NCBI GenBank assembly: GCA_002282015.1
Contig: NCIJ01000009.1
Location: 1-63,775, forward strand
Source: Sulfuricurvum sp. 17-40-25
GTDB lineage: Bacteria; Campylobacterota; Campylobacteria; Campylobacterales; Sulfurimonadaceae
Direction of reading: 5' to 3'
Length of the DNA stretch: 63,775 bases
In this document: one piece after another, positions 24,041-33,235 of the stretch
How positions within the stretch are numbered: position 1 is the stretch's first letter
How the letters are laid out: every line of letters starts with the position of its first letter
Position numbers and translations under genes: made by a program
Notes under the pieces: generated by a model
What the model saw: the letters and a program-made list of their open reading frames with translations, nothing else
What the model was told of the DNA's origin: nothing
The model's database searches: none

Positions 24041-25435
24041 ATGACCTACACAGAAGAAAAAGAGCGTTCGCATAGATTTGTGTTAGCGTTACGAATGGGT
24101 CTTCCCATTTTTTTAATGAGCATCATTGCTCTTTATGCTCTTTTTTCTCAAGCCTACTCTACCCTCTCTTCTCTGGTTATGCTTACATTACTATTGTTTG
24201 CCATGGCCATTTATTTTCTCTTTTTTTTAATCAATCAAAGCAGTTATGAGCACATCACTGAACCTATTGCCCACACGTTTACACCCGAATATTTTTTTAA
24301 ACTTTTTGACACTTGGACTAAACGTAAGATAGGGACCTTGGTGATGATCAGTATTGACAATCTAACTGGGATCAATGAGCGCTATGGGGTTAAAAATGGG
24401 GATACTATTCTTCAACAAATCGCGCTGCAGATAAACGACTACTTTGTTTCCAAAGAGATTAAAAAACTTTCTCTATGCCGATACAAAGGGGGTGACTTCA
24501 TCCTTTTGCTAATGGGTGAAAAAGAATCCAATGCTGCACTGATTGAACTTTTCTTAGCTAAATATCAAGACACCCTTCTTAATGAAATAGAAGTGAAGCT
24601 TTCGTGTGTATTGCTGGATACCAAGCATATTAAGCACTCAAAAGAGATCGTAACGCGGTTGTATGAACTTCAATATGCTAATAAAGAGAAAAAAACATTT
24701 ACTGACCGTGATGAGATTGTTCCTCATGAACTTGAAGAATCTGTTTTGAATGCACTTAAGCATGAGCGTTTTTCTATTGCATTACAGAGTGTGTGTTGTG
24801 ATAAAGCACCCTTGCATGAAGTTTCGTTCAAGCTTATGAATGAAACTAAGGGGCTGATACATCAAAGTCGATTTATCCCTTTGCTAAATCGTATGGGGAA
24901 AATTCGAGAATACGAAAGTGCTATTTTGGAACAGGTTATTAAGCTGACTTCTGGCGAAAGCGATTCCTATGCCGTTGGTTTGTCTTCGGTGACCTTGCGT
25001 AATGGTCTGTTTTTTCAGCACGCATTGGAACTCTTGCAGCAGTACCCAGAGGCAAAAAACAAAATTATAATTATGATAGATGAAAAAGAATATTGCTCCC
25101 AAATAAAACGGTTCAAAGAACAAGTTGCTCAATACCGCGCGGTGGGCTATAAGATTGCTTTGGATAAATACGGAGTGAACCATACAACAATGATGTATTT
25201 AAAAGAACTGGAAGTCGACTATGTTCGTTTTGATTCTTTATATGCACGGCACATCAAAGAAGAAAAATATCAAAACATTGTCCAAGGGCTTAATATAACC
25301 GCACATCTATGCGGTGCAGCAACATGGATCAATATGATTGAAGATGAAGAAAGCGATAAGATAGCGCTTGGTTTAAAGATCAATTATAGACAAGGCAACT
25401 TTCATGGAAAAATCACAGTAAAGGATACACAATGA
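24041..25435 (+). CDS. Membrane protein with degenerate GGDEF and EAL domains
   Basis: A 464-residue protein with two membrane segments near residues 18-66, a GGDEF-type domain at about 95-205 and an EAL-type domain from about 235 to the end. Both look inactive. The GGDEF signature reads RYKGGDF (147-153), lacking the glutamate of GG(D/E)EF. The EAL part has no EAL motif, and the DDFG segment reads ALDKYGV. It may bind nucleotide or act by protein contacts, but cannot be predicted to make or degrade c-di-GMP. It starts four bases after gyrB and its stop overlaps the queF start (ATGA), which is an unusual place for such a protein. Confidence 0.75.
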   Translation: MTYTEEKERSHRFVLALRMGLPIFLMSIIALYALFSQAYSTLSSLVMLTLLLFAMAIYFLFFLINQSSYEHITEPIAHTFTPEYFFKLFDTWTKRKIGTLVMISIDNLTGINERYGVKNGDTILQQIALQINDYFVSKEIKKLSLCRYKGGDFILLLMGEKESNAALIELFLAKYQDTLLNEIEVKLSCVLLDTKHIKHSKEIVTRLYELQYANKEKKTFTDRDEIVPHELEESVLNALKHERFSIALQSVCCDKAPLHEVSFKLMNETKGLIHQSRFIPLLNRMGKIREYESAILEQVIKLTSGESDSYAVGLSSVTLRNGLFFQHALELLQQYPEAKNKIIIMIDEKEYCSQIKRFKEQVAQYRAVGYKIALDKYGVNHTTMMYLKELEVDYVRFDSLYARHIKEEKYQNIVQGLNITAHLCGAATWINMIEDEESDKIALGLKINYRQGNFHGKITVKDTQ

Positions 25436-25844: not shown

Positions 25845-27797
25845 CTAAAACTTGTAAGTATACGTAAGATTAGCGCTACGTCCCCAATGGTGTGGAATGG
25901 TATTGGTTTGATTTCCAAAATTTAAATCGGGGGCATAAACCTCTTCATCCAGGAGATTGTCAAGATACAACGCAATTAAAGAATGGCCCGCTTTTCCAAT
26001 TCCCCACATCTTGGCAGTATCGATGGAAATATTGGCGCTTAATAGATTGTAAGCGTCTGCTTTGGGGTTAATGGCTGGTGCATTTGGTTGTGTTGCATTA
26101 AGATCAGTCGACGTCCCTATGTAGCTGTTAAAGACCCCGATGTTCATGCCATGAATTCGTTCGTAGTTAATACCGGTTTTTAGCATCATTTTTGGGGCAA
26201 ACGTACTGTCTTTTATGCCATTGTCTGTTTTATTGGTTTGATAGCTGAAATTCCCGACAAGATTGATTCCTTCATATATGTTGGTGCGACCTTCCAGCTC
26301 AATTCCCTGATATTGTACAAATCCTTGATTTTCATGCGATGGAGGAGTGGAGCTTGTTCGAACAATCAAGTCTTTATGCATGGTATCGTATAGGGTAAGG
26401 CCGAGATAGTGTTTTGGTGTTTGATAAATAAACTGAAGGTCATAGGTTTTGACGTGTTCGGGGGCTAAATTGGGGTTACGTGTTAGTGCGGCAGCAACAA
26501 GATAGGTTTCCACAAAGTTGGGTGAGCGAAAGGCTTCGCTGTAAAGCAGTTTAATCCAGAAATTATCTCCAAACCCCTGTATAAAACCCGCACGTGCAGA
26601 GTAATCTGCATTGTTTGCTTCGGGTTTGTTCCATTGCACCCCGCCGATTATCTTTTGTTTGGGCGAAAGCATGTAGTCGATTTGGGTATATGCAGATACG
26701 TTATACAGTTCGATAGGATCCAAAAAACGGTCAAATGCAGTGCTGTTGGTTACATAATTGGCACCAAAGAGAATATTTAAATCAGTATATACATTCCCCC
26801 TGACAATGGTCTCTAGCATTTCAGAACGATCATGATAATGATTACGCCCTAAGTCTTCTCGGATCTGCCATTTCAAATCACTGACGCTGGTGGTATAGTT
26901 TATAGAAGTATCCCAGCCTGGAGCAATATCATAGAGATACCCGATATCAAAAAAGTATCTTCGTTTGTCAACTTGCTGTGATGGGAGTTGAAAATTTGAG
27001 TTGGCACGACTTGGAGCATTGTCCATGATCATCGCATTTAGTGTAAAGTTTTTGTAGTTTCCATTAATGAGAAGATTATCGCTTTTTTCATCCATGACGT
27101 AGGTTCCTTGAATCCCATCTTTATCGGTGACCCCGTCAATGTCATCCCCATGTGATCGTATGGAATTGACACCGATATTAAGGGAGTAATCAGCGTCTCC
27201 TATTAGTGTTGTAAGTTGAAGCTGACGCCGGTTGAAGCTTCCTGCTCCAATGTCGACTTGGGATTCGTTAATTGAGTTCTTGGCATTTTTGGTGATGATA
27301 TTGATAACCCCTGCCATGGCATTGGTACCATATATGACGGATCCCGGTCCTCGTACCACTTCGATATGGTCGATTGTTTCGAGGGGAAAGCCCTGATAGA
27401 TATCAAAGTTGACCCCGCCATCGGTTGCTTCTCTCATTGGACGGCCGTTTAATAAGAGAAGTACTGAGCCTTCATTATGCGCCGAATTCATCCCTCGTAT
27501 GGATGCTTTTGTGTGCCCCCATTGATGAGAGCTTCCAATTTGAATTCCGACAAGACGGTCAATGACATCGCGTAAATGGCGGGCACCGTATTGATGAATC
27601 TCTTGAGCAGAAACCACGGTTACTATTCCAGATGCTAAATGCTGCGATTCCGGACGTCTGGATGTACTGGTAATTTCTACATTCATCAGGTCTTCTAGTG
27701 AAAGTGTGGATAAAAATTCGGGAGTATCATTGGTTGCGGTTTGCTCAGTTGCTTGGAGCAAGATGCAACTTAAAAAGGGTAGTAGTAGTTTTGTCAT
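25845..27797 (-). CDS. TonB-dependent outer-membrane receptor
   Basis: A 650-residue outer-membrane receptor with a short signal peptide, a plug domain and a beta-barrel ending in TYTYKF with terminal phenylalanine. The plug contains the TonB-box-like lead LEDLMNVEITSTSRRPES, then RGMNSAHNEGSVLLLLNGRP and IDHIEVVRGPGSVIYGTNAMAGVINIITK split into its usual two motifs. Size and barrel resemble the vitamin B12/colicin or siderophore-type receptors without matching one clearly, so the ligand is unknown. It is the last gene of an operon with a response regulator, a YfiR protein and a histidine kinase. A 15-bp inverted repeat precedes it. Confidence 0.9.
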   Translation of the reverse strand: MTKLLLPFLSCILLQATEQTATNDTPEFLSTLSLEDLMNVEITSTSRRPESQHLASGIVTVVSAQEIHQYGARHLRDVIDRLVGIQIGSSHQWGHTKASIRGMNSAHNEGSVLLLLNGRPMREATDGGVNFDIYQGFPLETIDHIEVVRGPGSVIYGTNAMAGVINIITKNAKNSINESQVDIGAGSFNRRQLQLTTLIGDADYSLNIGVNSIRSHGDDIDGVTDKDGIQGTYVMDEKSDNLLINGNYKNFTLNAMIMDNAPSRANSNFQLPSQQVDKRRYFFDIGYLYDIAPGWDTSINYTTSVSDLKWQIREDLGRNHYHDRSEMLETIVRGNVYTDLNILFGANYVTNSTAFDRFLDPIELYNVSAYTQIDYMLSPKQKIIGGVQWNKPEANNADYSARAGFIQGFGDNFWIKLLYSEAFRSPNFVETYLVAAALTRNPNLAPEHVKTYDLQFIYQTPKHYLGLTLYDTMHKDLIVRTSSTPPSHENQGFVQYQGIELEGRTNIYEGINLVGNFSYQTNKTDNGIKDSTFAPKMMLKTGINYERIHGMNIGVFNSYIGTSTDLNATQPNAPAINPKADAYNLLSANISIDTAKMWGIGKAGHSLIALYLDNLLDEEVYAPDLNFGNQTNTIPHHWGRSANLTYTYKF

Positions 27798-27825
27798 TAT
27801 TGTATTCCTAAAGTTATAAGAAATT

Positions 27826-27868
27826 ATAATAATGATTAAGTCATTAAAGGTTACTTAATCATTATTAT
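27826..27868. promoter_or_regulatory. 15-bp perfect inverted repeat before the TonB receptor, Fur-box-like
   Basis: ATAATAATGATTAAG (27826-27840) and its exact complement (27854-27868) flank 13 bases, in the 72-bp gap between the kinase gene and the receptor gene. Each arm contains ATAATGAT/ATCATTAT units that resemble half-sites of the Fur operator. No T-run follows on the transcribed strand, so an operator is more likely than a terminator. An iron-responsive promoter for the receptor is inferred, not shown. Confidence 0.5.
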
Positions 27869-27869
27869 C

Positions 27870-29420
27870 TTATTTTTTAAGTAAAAGAGGAACAGTGAAG
27901 GTATATTTTGTCCCCTCGTTAGGCTTACTTTCCAACTGAACCTTTCCTTGTAGCTTTTGGGTGATTAAATTGTAAACAATATTGAGCCCAAGCCCTGATC
28001 CACCTGAATTTCTTTTGGTGGTGGTGAAGGGCTCAAAGGCAACGGGTCTGATTTTGGCATCCATTCCCAGTCCATTATCGCTATAGGTCACTACAAGAGA
28101 GTCTGATACGACTTCATAGTGAATCACGATAGTGGGATGCTGTATTTTTTCATTAAAGGCATGAAGCAGTGAATTTTGAATGAAGTTGGATATAATTTGA
28201 GCGTAGACTCCCGGGTATGAGTTAAGAATAAGGGTCTGATCACCTTGAAGAGTAACCGCAATAGGGATTTTTTTGAGCTTATTATGAAAAGTAAGCAGGA
28301 TTTCTTGAAGGTAATCGTATAAATTAAACTCACGTGCATTTTCGCTGGCTTGATCCACAGAGACACGTTTGAAACTACGAATCAAATCGGCGGCATGCTC
28401 CAAGCTTCTCATCATGACCTGAGCCGTTTCATTTAAAATATGCAGCCCATGATCCATAGAAGATTTTTTAAGAGTGCCAGCTTCCATGGAAGCCAACAGA
28501 TTTTTACTCTCTTTGAGGATGATTGAACCACCGGTAATGGCATTTCCAAGAGGGGTGTTGACCTCGTGAGCTACACCGCTGACCAGACTCCCCAATGCCG
28601 CCATTTTTTCAGATTGAACCATTTGTACTTGGGTTTTTTGCAGGGTTTCCAAAGAGAATTCGAGCTCTTTGGTTCGTTGTGCGACACGTTTCTCAAGATT
28701 TGCAGTAAGGGATTGTGTCTCTTCTAATAGATGGTTAAAGGATCGGTATAAAGAACTTATTTCATTATCGGCTTTGTACGAGACGCGTAACGCATAGTTA
28801 TTGGTATCCGCAATGTTTTGAGCAGTATGGGATAAGTCTAAAACGGGCTGTAAAATTTTTTTACTCAAATGACGTGCCGAAAAGTAGACTAAGGTTAGAA
28901 GAAAAAAGGAAAAGATAGACAAGAAAAAAAGCATATTCAGCAAAAACTGAGTGATATTGTCGCTTTTTCGTTCGATTGAGAGATAGCCCAAGAGCTCTTC
29001 GTTCTCTTTGATTTCAATCGTTGTTGTGAGATTACCAAAAATCCAGGGCTTCCAGGAGGTATCATGGTAGCTGTTTTGCACATAGGGCAAAGTGTCTGGG
29101 ATGGAATGAACCCGCGTATGCAGACCATAGGCCAAAGGTATTTTGCGGGAATCGTATACAATGGCACTGATGACGTCATCATTGTTATTGAGATATTCCA
29201 GTTGTTCATCGATTCCCTGAATATCTAAAAAAGCCAAAGGTGCGGCCGTCATATTGGCGATGAGCTGTGTTTCTAGAGCGCTTTTTGTCTTAAAAGCAGT
29301 TTTTTCATGGTTTAGCGTATGCCAAAGATGAAAAAGAGTTCCAAAAAAGAGAATAGCGATACTGGTTACAACCAGGGACAGAGTGATTTGAGAGGTGATG
29401 GAATACTGTTTGATGTGCAT
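27870..29420 (-). CDS. Membrane sensor histidine kinase
   Basis: A 516-residue kinase with membrane segments at about residues 12-32 and 160-182 enclosing a periplasmic sensor domain of about 125 residues. A HAMP-like linker (183-240), a coiled coil (240-270), the phosphoacceptor helix and an ATPase domain follow. The H-box is VAHEVNTPLGNA (H285), and the catalytic domain has NFIQNSLLHAF, DNGLGMD and GGSGLGLNIV. The H-box resembles those of the HPK4/NtrB-type kinases with AHE(V/I)NTP. It sits two bases after the YfiR gene and upstream of the TonB receptor. The nearest response regulator is the GGDEF-EAL protein two genes upstream, its probable partner. Confidence 0.88.
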   Translation of the reverse strand: MHIKQYSITSQITLSLVVTSIAILFFGTLFHLWHTLNHEKTAFKTKSALETQLIANMTAAPLAFLDIQGIDEQLEYLNNNDDVISAIVYDSRKIPLAYGLHTRVHSIPDTLPYVQNSYHDTSWKPWIFGNLTTTIEIKENEELLGYLSIERKSDNITQFLLNMLFFLSIFSFFLLTLVYFSARHLSKKILQPVLDLSHTAQNIADTNNYALRVSYKADNEISSLYRSFNHLLEETQSLTANLEKRVAQRTKELEFSLETLQKTQVQMVQSEKMAALGSLVSGVAHEVNTPLGNAITGGSIILKESKNLLASMEAGTLKKSSMDHGLHILNETAQVMMRSLEHAADLIRSFKRVSVDQASENAREFNLYDYLQEILLTFHNKLKKIPIAVTLQGDQTLILNSYPGVYAQIISNFIQNSLLHAFNEKIQHPTIVIHYEVVSDSLVVTYSDNGLGMDAKIRPVAFEPFTTTKRNSGGSGLGLNIVYNLITQKLQGKVQLESKPNEGTKYTFTVPLLLKK

Positions 29421-29421
29421 T

Positions 29422-29952
29422 TTATTGTCCTACCGCGTCGATAACGGTTGCGAATTTGAGCAGCTTATAGCTGGCATTTAATTTTGCATTGGTGAGATTA
29501 CGCTGGTTGATGACAAAACGATAGGCGTTTTTTTCCAAATAAAAAGAGATCATACCCCCTTTGGTGGCATCATCCTTGTCATCGCTGATCATCAAAATGT
29601 TTTCATTATGAAGTTTATTGAGCTGAGCACTGTTTTGCAGAGGCTTGGAACCTCGATAATAGAGAATAGTACAGGCTGAGAAATCTTGGAGGGAGGTTCC
29701 AGCACTTAATGACAAAACCTTGACCGGGCGATTGTTAAAACGTCGGGAGGCATACATTTTTTCTAAGGTATTCCCAAACGCATCATCATTATAAACGCAT
29801 ACATTATACTCAGGGATTGGATTTGGCCACTCGATAAACATCGCAAAACGTTCCAGATAAGCGGCCTTGATGTTTTCTTCTGAAGAAGCTTGCAATACTC
29901 CAGCTGTGCACAGCACAAGGAGCAAGGGTAAGATTATTTTTGGCTGTTTCAC
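29422..29952 (-). CDS. YfiR family (DUF4154) periplasmic protein
   Basis: A 176-residue protein with a cleavable signal peptide (hydrophobic residues 5-22, probable cleavage after VLQA). The mature domain starts EENIKAAYLERFAMFIEWP and includes VCVYNDDAFGNTLE and ILMISDDKD, both typical of YfiR/DUF4154. In Pseudomonas, YfiR is a periplasmic brake on the cyclase YfiN. There is no YfiN-type cyclase here; instead the protein is encoded between a cytoplasmic GGDEF-EAL response regulator and a sensor kinase. Its partner may therefore be the kinase's periplasmic domain, which is inference. The start overlaps the upstream gene by four bases. Confidence 0.85.
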   Translation of the reverse strand: MKQPKIILPLLLVLCTAGVLQASSEENIKAAYLERFAMFIEWPNPIPEYNVCVYNDDAFGNTLEKMYASRRFNNRPVKVLSLSAGTSLQDFSACTILYYRGSKPLQNSAQLNKLHNENILMISDDKDDATKGGMISFYLEKNAYRFVINQRNLTNAKLNASYKLLKFATVIDAVGQ

Positions 29953-31655
29953 GCAATCAAATCAGGCTTAGGTTCGCCTAAAAAATATCCTTGGGCATAA
30001 TCGACACCTAGGGATTTTACAATTTCATAGACCTGTGCGTTATGGACAAACTCTGCGACGGTTTTGACTTTAATCTTACGAGTAAAATAGAGGATAGATT
30101 CTGTAATCGTTCGGGATTGGGGATTGGTATCGATATCTTTGATGTAGGCACCGTCAATTTTTATGATGGAGAGGTTGAGTGCGCCGATTTGAGCAAAATT
30201 AGAACACTGTACCCCAAAGTCATCCAAACACAAATGGTAGCCTATCTCAGTGAGTTTTGCTAAATGCTCTTCAGCCATTGGATTGCTCAAAATACTGCTC
30301 TCTTCGAGAATCTCAAAATAGATCCGATTGGGATCGATGTTATGCAGTTGCCGTGTTTGTTCTATAAATTCTATAAAGTTAGGTTCGATGAGGTCCTGAT
30401 CTGTGATATTGACCGAAAAAGAGAGGGCGTTATGGGCGAACTTTATACACGCCTGGGTAAACATCTTTTGTGTGATTTGGTAGAGTAAACCTGCGTGCCG
30501 TGCCGTAGCCAAAAAATGAAAGGGAGAGTATATCGTTCCATCGCGCTCTAAGCGTACCAAGCTTTCATATTTGACAATCTCTTGGGTTTTACAATCTATA
30601 ATAGGCTGAAAATAGGCCAGTATTCTGTCATTATCAAGGGCAGTTTTGAGCCATTTTGTCCACTTGGTGTTTTCTCGTATTTGCTGTATTAGATCAAGGT
30701 CATCTGAATAGTATTGGACTCGATTACGGCTCAATTTACGTGCTTGGCGAAGCGCAATCTCGGCTTTTTGGATCATGTTTCCGACATCATGCTCGACGAT
30801 GCCTATAGTGACATTTAGACGATGTTCCACTTCTTGGATCGTATAGGTTTCCATGGAGAGGCTATTTCTTATATTTTTGACGTATGTCTGAACGTTGTTA
30901 TCGGGTCGAAAGCAAGTCAAAATAGCAAATATATCTGCTTCAAGACGGTAAATATCGGATTTGTGATGCGATGCGTTACGTAAAATATCAGCAAACTGTA
31001 TGAGCATCTGATCTCCTACGTCAAACCCATAAACATCGTTGATCATGCTAAACGAATCGATGTTAAGTAAGATCAGAGACATAGGCTCGGTGCTATCAAG
31101 ATCAAAGTTTAGCTTGGATCGATTGCCAAGTCCCGTTAGAGTGTCAGTGATGAGGGCTGTGTAAATCTCATTTTTTTTATTTTCAAGTTCAATGATGTGT
31201 TTGTATTGAGATAGGGAGCTTCGAATGGTTGTGTAAAGCCTGTCCGCCGTAAGCTCTGTTTTTTCTTTGTAGTCGTTTATGTCGTAATGATCAATAACGT
31301 AGCGTTCAGGAGATATACCAGGCTGCCCTGTGCGTATGATAATACGTACGTTTGGATTGTTAAAGTGGTGGCGGATGACTTTGACAAGTTCCAACCCTGC
31401 GGTATCGGTTTCCATAACGACATCCAGCAGTACGATAGAAATATCATTGCGCTGTTCAAAAATAGTTTCTGCTTCTTTGGCGCTGTATGCTGAAAGGAAG
31501 AGAAGGCCTTTTCGTTCATACGAAAAATCATGCAATGCGAGTTTGGTCATGGAGTGGACTTCACGGTCGTCATCCACTATCAATATGACCCAGGGGTCAT
31601 TATGCAGTGTTTCATCACCCTCTTCGGCTGCAAACAAAAATTCATCTGAAGACAT
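29949..31655 (-). CDS. Response regulator with degenerate GGDEF and probably active EAL domain
   Basis: A 568-residue three-domain protein. The receiver domain (about 20-150) has the phosphoacceptor D78 in SIVLLDVVMET and the acidic triad VDDD. The GGDEF domain (165-325) has EADIF (239-243) in place of GGDEF and is probably not a cyclase. The EAL domain (335-565) keeps the key residues: ESL at 364-366, N416, E448/E451, D478-D479 in LCLDDFG, K499 in IIKID and E535. It is therefore a likely c-di-GMP phosphodiesterase controlled by phosphorylation. It is the first gene of the operon leading to YfiR, the kinase and the TonB receptor. Confidence 0.9.
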   Translation of the reverse strand: MSSDEFLFAAEEGDETLHNDPWVILIVDDDREVHSMTKLALHDFSYERKGLLFLSAYSAKEAETIFEQRNDISIVLLDVVMETDTAGLELVKVIRHHFNNPNVRIIIRTGQPGISPERYVIDHYDINDYKEKTELTADRLYTTIRSSLSQYKHIIELENKKNEIYTALITDTLTGLGNRSKLNFDLDSTEPMSLILLNIDSFSMINDVYGFDVGDQMLIQFADILRNASHHKSDIYRLEADIFAILTCFRPDNNVQTYVKNIRNSLSMETYTIQEVEHRLNVTIGIVEHDVGNMIQKAEIALRQARKLSRNRVQYYSDDLDLIQQIRENTKWTKWLKTALDNDRILAYFQPIIDCKTQEIVKYESLVRLERDGTIYSPFHFLATARHAGLLYQITQKMFTQACIKFAHNALSFSVNITDQDLIEPNFIEFIEQTRQLHNIDPNRIYFEILEESSILSNPMAEEHLAKLTEIGYHLCLDDFGVQCSNFAQIGALNLSIIKIDGAYIKDIDTNPQSRTITESILYFTRKIKVKTVAEFVHNAQVYEIVKSLGVDYAQGYFLGEPKPDLIA

Positions 31656-31753
31656 ATCTACCCTTTTTCTTTATCCCTAAAGAAGTGTTTATGTCAACTA
31701 TTATAGCACTTAAAAATAAGAAAAGATGATAAGAAAGAGGAAAGTTTTGGCTA

Positions 31754-33235
31754 TTAATAGCCAAAACCTACTTTGAGTGCGAAGAAGAAAAGTGCTGCCA
31801 TTGCTCCTGCTGCAGGTAGGGTGACTACCCATGCCATGGCAATAGGACGCATCAAGGCCCAGTTAGCGTTACGGTTCAATAAACCGATACCGATAATAGC
31901 ACCCACTAAGATATGAGTTGACGATACAGGGATCCCCATTTTGGTTGCTAGGAGAATGACCAATGTCGCACCAAGCTCTGCAGCAAAGCCGGTTACTGGG
32001 AATATTTCAGTAATTCGGCTACCAACGGTTTCAATGACTTCTTTACCGATAAACCACAGTCCCGCTATCAATGCGACTCCAAAGGTAGCCATTGCAATAA
32101 GGGGAACCGGAGCCTCTGTATTGATTTGACCCGTTGCTAGTATATCGATGATAGCAGCAAAGGGTCCAATAGCATTTGCAATGTCATTAGCACCATGGCT
32201 AAATGCGAACGAAGAGGCTGTGAGAACTTGTAGCATACTAAAGACACGCATGGTTGCTTTATGCGGAGTGTCTTTGTGCATCACTTTGACAATCGCAAAA
32301 ACAACGCCGTACATCAATGTTGACATGAGTGCAAGCAGCATGTAAATTTGAACGTCATCAAGACCTAAGTGCGTGTGTTTTAGCCCTTTGAACAAGAGCA
32401 TACCCGCGATCATCGCCGTTCCAAACGCTGCAGCAATAGGGGCATGCGTTCGAAGAGCGTAAAATGCGTTTGATTTTTTCTTGAGAGTCGTTATTTTAGC
32501 TACTTGAGCTGTGTAGCGCTCTTTTTCATCATCGGTAGCATTGGTGGCATCGTGTGCTAGATGTAAGCTCTCTAGCTGTTTTTTGAGGGCATCAATATGA
32601 GATTGAATGTGGTCATTGTAGTCTAGTATGTATTTTTTCAAATACCAATAAATACCATACGATGCTATCCCTCCCAAAATCGGGGAGACGACCCAGCTTA
32701 GTGCGATTTTGATGATCTGATCCCAATGGATAAGGCCAAATACAGATTCACCCGCTCCCATCGTAACGTATCCAAGGGCTATAGAGCCTCCCAAAATACC
32801 ACCAACGATCGAATGCGTAGTGGAGACGGGATACCCTTTTTTAGAAGCGTACAGTAGCCATGTTCCTGCTGACAATAGAGATCCCATCATGACAAAGACA
32901 AACAGCATCGGATCAAAGTCCATCGCGGAGATATCGACAATCCCTTTTCGAATGGTGTCGGTTACGGCTGAACCTGCGAGCATGGCTCCGCCAAGCTCAA
33001 AGATTGCTGCGATCATGAGCGCTTGTTTGACGGTCAGCGTTTTGGCGCCGACACTCGTTCCAAAGGAATTGGCTACGTCATTGCCTCCGATGTTAAATGC
33101 CATAAAAACCCCAAACAAGGTGGCAAGGACAAAAAGGGTGAAGTTACTTTGAAGATAATCAAATCCCCAGATGAGAAATACGGTGGTCATAACGACAAAA
33201 ATACCGCCGAAAAAGAGGTTGTCACGTGAAAACAT
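31754..33235 (-). CDS. Inorganic phosphate transporter, Pit family
   Basis: A 493-residue low-affinity phosphate permease. The two duplicated Pit signatures are visible: FNIGGNDVANSFGTSVGAKTLT near residue 45 (split here into its parts) and FSHGANDIANAIGPFAA near residue 345. About ten membrane helices surround a charged cytoplasmic loop (residues 200-260, lysine- and aspartate-rich). It follows pstB by 79 bp on the same strand, so high- and low-affinity phosphate uptake are encoded side by side. GGAG precedes the ATG by five bases. Confidence 0.9.
   Translation of the reverse strand: MFSRDNLFFGGIFVVMTTVFLIWGFDYLQSNFTLFVLATLFGVFMAFNIGGNDVANSFGTSVGAKTLTVKQALMIAAIFELGGAMLAGSAVTDTIRKGIVDISAMDFDPMLFVFVMMGSLLSAGTWLLYASKKGYPVSTTHSIVGGILGGSIALGYVTMGAGESVFGLIHWDQIIKIALSWVVSPILGGIASYGIYWYLKKYILDYNDHIQSHIDALKKQLESLHLAHDATNATDDEKERYTAQVAKITTLKKKSNAFYALRTHAPIAAAFGTAMIAGMLLFKGLKHTHLGLDDVQIYMLLALMSTLMYGVVFAIVKVMHKDTPHKATMRVFSMLQVLTASSFAFSHGANDIANAIGPFAAIIDILATGQINTEAPVPLIAMATFGVALIAGLWFIGKEVIETVGSRITEIFPVTGFAAELGATLVILLATKMGIPVSSTHILVGAIIGIGLLNRNANWALMRPIAMAWVVTLPAAGAMAALFFFALKVGFGY

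Follow-up and report, generated by a model that had tools for sequence, protein, structure and literature searches.

YfiR systems control biofilm-related c-di-GMP, and the binding of YfiR to its partner YfiN is inhibitory. A locus in Sulfuricurvum sp. 17-40-25 raises the question of whether a TonB-dependent receptor might feed a signal into such a system. Within positions 25845-31655 of the window, by which we mean the whole analysed stretch of 63,775 nucleotides, the ORF list contains four minus-strand reading frames, encoding an EAL response regulator, a YfiR-like periplasmic protein, a sensor histidine kinase and a TonB-dependent outer-membrane receptor (Table 1). The Pfam domains of all four proteins exceed the curated cut-offs, and the receiver-controlled EAL enzyme proposed in an earlier, sequence-only reading is a REC-GGDEF-EAL protein. 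That reading saw in the four genes, all of which are present, a possible route from ligand capture at the outer membrane to the c-di-GMP level.

Table 1. Features of the YfiR locus and its flanks (window coordinates).
Feature	Position	Strand	Basis or remark
TonB-dependent outer-membrane receptor	25845..27797	-	PF07715 (plug) and PF00593 (barrel), above cut-off
Plug domain of receptor	27306-27632	-	Pfam
Receptor N-terminal segment LSTLSLEDLMNVEITSTSRR	27654..27713	-	SLE[ED]L-type motif ahead of a TonB-box-like stretch; common to many YfiR-adjacent receptors
Hairpin between kinase and receptor genes	27826..27868	-	16-bp perfect, AT-rich
Sensor histidine kinase, two TM helices	27870..29420	-	Pfam, NCBIfam
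HATPase_c of kinase	27885-28202	-	Pfam
Phosphoacceptor H285 in AHEVNTP	28566-28568	-	Alignment
HAMP of kinase	28716-28868	-	Pfam, above cut-off
Periplasmic CHASE8/PDC sensor of kinase	28941-29330	-	Pfam, above cut-off
YfiR-like periplasmic protein (DUF4154), signal peptide, GTG start	29422..29952	-	PF13689
Response regulator REC-GGDEF-EAL	29949..31655	-	Pfam Response_reg, GGDEF, EAL
EAL phosphodiesterase domain of regulator	29973-30656	-	Pfam
Degenerate GGDEF of regulator, signature RLEAD	30723-31151	-	Pfam and alignment
Receiver domain of regulator	31320-31589	-	Pfam
Candidate operon -10 box GTGCTATAAT	31700..31705	-	By eye; similar position upstream of the EAL gene in relatives
Terminator-like hairpin of upstream phosphate-permease gene	31742..31769	-	Separates permease from operon

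The four genes had been taken for one unit with almost no spacing. This holds for the genes of the EAL regulator, the YfiR-like protein and the kinase, of which the first two overlap by 4 nt (GTGA) and the last two lie 1 nt apart, but not for the receptor gene, which follows the kinase gene after a gap of 72 nt that holds the 16-bp hairpin (-18.6 kcal/mol; z of -5.3 against shuffles). Separate control of the receptor gene is thus possible, and the hairpin is a possible operator or attenuator. Sulfuricurvum loci are syntenic with the window at about 70% identity. Neither the hairpin nor its inverted repeat was found in the relatives, which do share a TATTAT-like stretch ahead of the receptor gene, so that this gene may have a promoter of its own. 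For the candidate -10 box ahead of the operon (Table 1), a promoter scan gave no excess over shuffled sequence. A Fur box ahead of the receptor gene was considered and rejected, because the sequences that most resemble one occur at other sites of the window and relatives do not share the inverted repeat.

Domain, fold and secretion signal concur in placing the small periplasmic protein in the YfiR family (DUF4154, YfiR/HmsC-like). It matches PF13689 with 114.9 bits (cut-off 24.9; E 4.2e-33) and the NCBIfam model YfiR_like_TOL0243 with an E value of 2e-26, and its N-terminus is hydrophobic and signal-peptide-like. Since a sequence search of the PDB returned no match for this protein, we compared folds instead. 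The AF2 model (pLDDT 85.8) was submitted to Foldseek, and the 15 best PDB matches were all YfiR of P. aeruginosa (TM to target up to 0.76), followed by the single-domain substrate-binding proteins 5z6v and 6k1x and the ABC substrate-binding lobes 3lft and 3lkv. Phe/Leu positions close to the C-terminus (RFVIN, KLL) align with E. coli YfiR, and the Sulfuricurvum clade conserves two cysteines that several relatives lack.

The kinase combines the input side of YfiN with a histidine kinase output. Its residues 15-247 match the YfiN/DgcN model (E 4e-20), its N-terminal half also matches the NCBIfam model HK_near_YfiR_like (E 9e-27), and the AF2 model of its sensor is PDC-like and lies near LapD-type and CitA domains. 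Among 12 kinases H285, N412/N416 and the G-box residues are invariant, and the N, F and G boxes are kept. The sequence-only reading had stated that YfiN is absent. No whole YfiN is encoded in the cluster, but the N-terminal half of the kinase is YfiN-like, including its CHASE8 and HAMP domains, and a YfiR-like gene paired with a GGDEF partner lies elsewhere in the genome. The cluster therefore carries the input half of YfiN in fusion with a kinase, and, as far as the sequence tells, the cyclase domain of YfiN has given way to a kinase from which the EAL regulator should receive phosphate. The suggestion that YfiR may act on the sensor of this kinase gains good support from homology. For the contact between YfiR and YfiN, Malone et al. 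(PMC3375315) proposed a C-terminal Phe/Leu patch of YfiR and a Phe in the AAVVF stretch of the sensor, and the hydrophobic residues implicated there have counterparts in the YfiR-like protein and in the kinase sensor, the conserved Phe-x-Asp of which aligns with E. coli DgcN. Moreover, of the 15 CHASE8 domains above cut-off in our phylum sample, 11 have a DUF4154 gene no further than about 4 kb away. The second YfiR-like gene of the source genome and its GGDEF partner (G000:C1:242724-243101; L031 6575-8394) have no adjacent receptor gene, which may have been lost since the similar loci L048 and L050 carry a divergent receptor there.

The EAL regulator retains intact active-site motifs. In the window protein and five Sulfuricurvum-type orthologues of about 71% identity, D78, T109 and K130 of the receiver and E364, N416, E448, D478/D479, K499, E535 and Q555 of the EAL domain are all invariant, as is the RLEAD sequence in place of the GGDEF signature. 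Because EAL loop 6 is atypical (DFGVQCSN, not DFGTGYSS), phosphodiesterase activity of the regulator is not assured.

The receptor consists of plug and barrel, and Pfam detected no STN signalling domain in it; FecA-type signalling was rejected for this reason. Its match to the TOL_0244 family is limited to residues 29-190, and TonB C-terminal domains are present in the genome. The SLE[ED]L motif in its N-terminal segment recurs in 7 of 7 YfiR-adjacent receptors as opposed to 1 of 28 others, this one adjoining a YfiR-kinase fusion. We treat the motif as a lead, since the pattern was picked after inspection and a wider set of adjacent receptors carries it in 20 of 36 cases.

To ascertain how regularly receptor and YfiR occur together, we drew 298 Campylobacterota genomes evenly, found 31 DUF4154 matches in 22 of them and examined all 31 neighbourhoods; the YfiR genes of L065 and L069, missed by the ORF picker, were placed by coordinates. 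The sequence-only reading would have been weakened by a lack of association of these families in other genomes, and the opposite was found: counted with a profile built from related loci, a TonB-dependent receptor lies no more than two genes from the YfiR-like gene in 29 of the 31 loci, mostly as its immediate neighbour. The exceptions are L066, in which the receptor is six genes off, and L070. At distances of three to eight genes from YfiR, only 1 of 254 genes encodes a receptor. The 22 genomes hold 8.6 plugs on average, so that chance would be expected to yield such linkage in about 1.5% of loci if a genome has about 2,300 genes. In none of the 31 loci, the one in the window included, did the genes up to 5 kb away contain a significant match to YfiB.

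The gene order was followed through relatives recovered by a genome-collection scan with the EAL regulator alignment. Sulfuricurvum, Sulfurimonas and Arcobacter relatives share the order EAL regulator, YfiR, kinase. The Sulfuricurvum relatives have all four genes together, as do L078 and L079, the receptor is missing in L077, L082 and L083 (Sulfurimonas and Arcobacter loci), and YfiR is missing in L076 and L084, so that neither of the two is strictly required. This conserved linkage of EAL regulator and kinase and the recurrent pairing of receptor and YfiR lend support to the proposed path by which a signal at the outer membrane would reach c-di-GMP. Across 36 triads the similarity of YfiR tracks that of the receptor (r 0.91) more closely than that of the sensor (r 0.73), which is consistent with contact but confounded by common descent, as this by itself yields positive values, and by near-duplicates among the loci. 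When L044 is compared with the window, the regulator domains are 72-76% identical, as opposed to 33% for YfiR, 32% for the sensor and 26% for the receptor; the receptor also has other nearest relatives, and it appears as if the input had been exchanged and the output kept. The contig of L036 (2034-6077), shared with L072, carries two tandem receptor genes after the kinase gene, each with about 65% identity to the receptor of the window, which represents a duplication of the proposed input.

The output paired with YfiR and receptor varies widely. Beside both we found CHASE8-HAMP-GGDEF proteins (L037, L052, L055), a GGDEF-EAL protein (L060), kinases (L053, L187, L188) and hybrid kinases with Hpt (L062, L063). 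DUF4154 also occurs near a receptor in one chain with GGDEF (L041, L045), SpoIIE (L047) or a kinase (L064), and in the GGDEF and SpoIIE fusions a long coiled-coil-like stretch and one TM helix join the YfiR domain to the output. Because the linkage persists despite unrelated outputs, fusions included, the receptor is the most constant partner of YfiR. The SpoIIE phosphatase fusion (L047 5122-7035), which adjoins its receptor, extends the outputs of YfiR beyond c-di-GMP signalling. Comparable clusters are found in Gamma- and Alphaproteobacteria, a breadth that rests on L096 and plasmid records. The Spongiibacteraceae locus L096 has the order receptor, YfiR, kinase, REC, REC, and its receptor scores 617 bits on the TOL_0244 model. 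Receptor, YfiR and kinase also follow each other on plasmid records of two Sphingobium, an Indioceanicola plasmid record holds a YfiR match flanked by receptor and kinase, and Pseudoalteromonas plasmid records show receptor, YfiR and GGDEF/EAL. On one of the latter (L193 2795-6486) the receptor reads as two ORFs, and an IS30-family transposase gene lies between receptor and YfiR.

We slightly favour the view that the locus encodes a Yfi-type envelope relay in which the receptor takes the place of YfiB as the outer-membrane input, with kinase and EAL regulator as the output. In P. aeruginosa, outer-membrane YfiB sequesters YfiR away from YfiN (PMC3375315). By analogy, the YfiR-like protein would bind the kinase's PDC/CHASE8 sensor and set its state, and the liganded or energised receptor, as the gene linkage suggests, would alter the amount of free YfiR. 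Upon a switch of the sensor the kinase would autophosphorylate at H285 and the phosphate would presumably be transferred to D78 of the regulator, the phosphodiesterase activity of which would change so that c-di-GMP is lowered or, if the sign is the other way, spared. A specific transfer between these two proteins gains indirect support from the adjacency of their genes, which several genera conserve.

An alternative to which we assign a minor but appreciable chance is that YfiR acts as a ligand-binding adaptor: the receptor would import a ligand, YfiR would bind it in the periplasm and the complex would act on the kinase sensor. The resemblance of YfiR to single-lobe substrate-binding proteins in the Foldseek ranking fits this idea, which moreover explains the linkage without direct contact between receptor and YfiR. 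However, a soaking study of a single-domain protein of Rhodothermus marinus revealed only Hg2+ on a cysteine and assigned no function, and canonical YfiR signals via protein contacts with YfiB and YfiN (PMC3375315). It is rather improbable that the receptor is a passenger or a regulated target, co-located because it serves the same physiology, and that YfiR senses redox or envelope stress. The gap with its hairpin and a possible promoter of the receptor gene itself, the three-gene cores that lack a receptor and the cysteines kept in the Sulfuricurvum clade would suit this explanation, whereas the near-constant linkage of receptor and YfiR across unrelated outputs, YfiR-output fusions among them, and the lack of the cysteines in several relatives argue against it. 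That the genes are neighbours by accident or through general operon crowding, with no common pathway, we regard as hardly credible. With 27 EAL and 7 plug matches in the genome some chance adjacency is to be expected, but the linkage statistics already contradict this explanation, and order is conserved across genera and linkage recurs in other classes.

Beyond the relay proposed for this locus, we tentatively put forward, as an idea that falls somewhat short of being probable, that a TonB receptor, YfiR and an interchangeable transducer constitute a general class of envelope signalling, as yet unpublished, that spans Campylobacterota and Proteobacteria. An STN-less receptor would talk to YfiR, perhaps via the SLEEL-type N-terminal segment, and YfiR would drive the attached cyclase, kinase-EAL pair, hybrid kinase or SpoIIE-type phosphatase.

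When compared to YfiBNR (TpbB) of Pseudomonas and E. coli, the window cluster shares a YfiR-family periplasmic protein, an inner-membrane partner with YfiN-like sensor and HAMP, and a c-di-GMP endpoint. It differs in having a kinase and a REC-EAL regulator instead of a GGDEF cyclase on the partner and a TonB receptor instead of the OmpA/Pal-like lipoprotein YfiB, and its output is expected to remove rather than make c-di-GMP. Closer still are the divergent YfiNR pairs of Malone et al. 2012 (PMC3375315), mostly without YfiB, in which YfiR adjoins a kinase with a YfiN-like sensor in place of the YfiN cyclase and was proposed to act on it; the main text of that paper, however, never contains the word TonB, and no description of a dedicated EAL regulator was found in it. 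NCBIfam curates a triad of YfiR-like protein, TonB receptor and kinase (TOL_0243, TOL_0244 and HK_near_YfiR_like), which three window proteins match with scores short of the curated cut-offs; neither a mechanism nor an EAL regulator appears in the names of the models. In FecA-FecR-FecI a TonB receptor likewise passes a signal across the envelope, but the window cluster encodes no STN domain, FecR or sigma factor, its relay consisting of YfiR and kinase. In a search that covered mainly open-access literature, we found no paper that joins YfiR to TonB receptors. The action of YfiR on kinases was already proposed in 2012, and NCBIfam already names the receptor, YfiR and kinase families that share this association. 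New here are the count of the linkage across the phylum, the exchangeability of the outputs and the recognition of the kinase input as YfiN-like with a dedicated EAL regulator. If TonB receptors are the usual outer-membrane partner of YfiR throughout the phylum, nutrient or siderophore capture becomes a candidate YfiR signal and STN-less receptors become candidate signalling receptors.

Next to the operon, on the plus strand, the window encodes a membrane-anchored GGDEF-EAL protein (24041-25435) without a sizeable periplasmic domain, for which LapD is the best NCBIfam match. In its EAL domain the catalytic motifs seem degenerate (e.g. LDKYG instead of DDFG), which suggests a c-di-GMP receptor, and a similar gene is kept beside the operon in the Sulfuricurvum relatives L034, L035 and L038.
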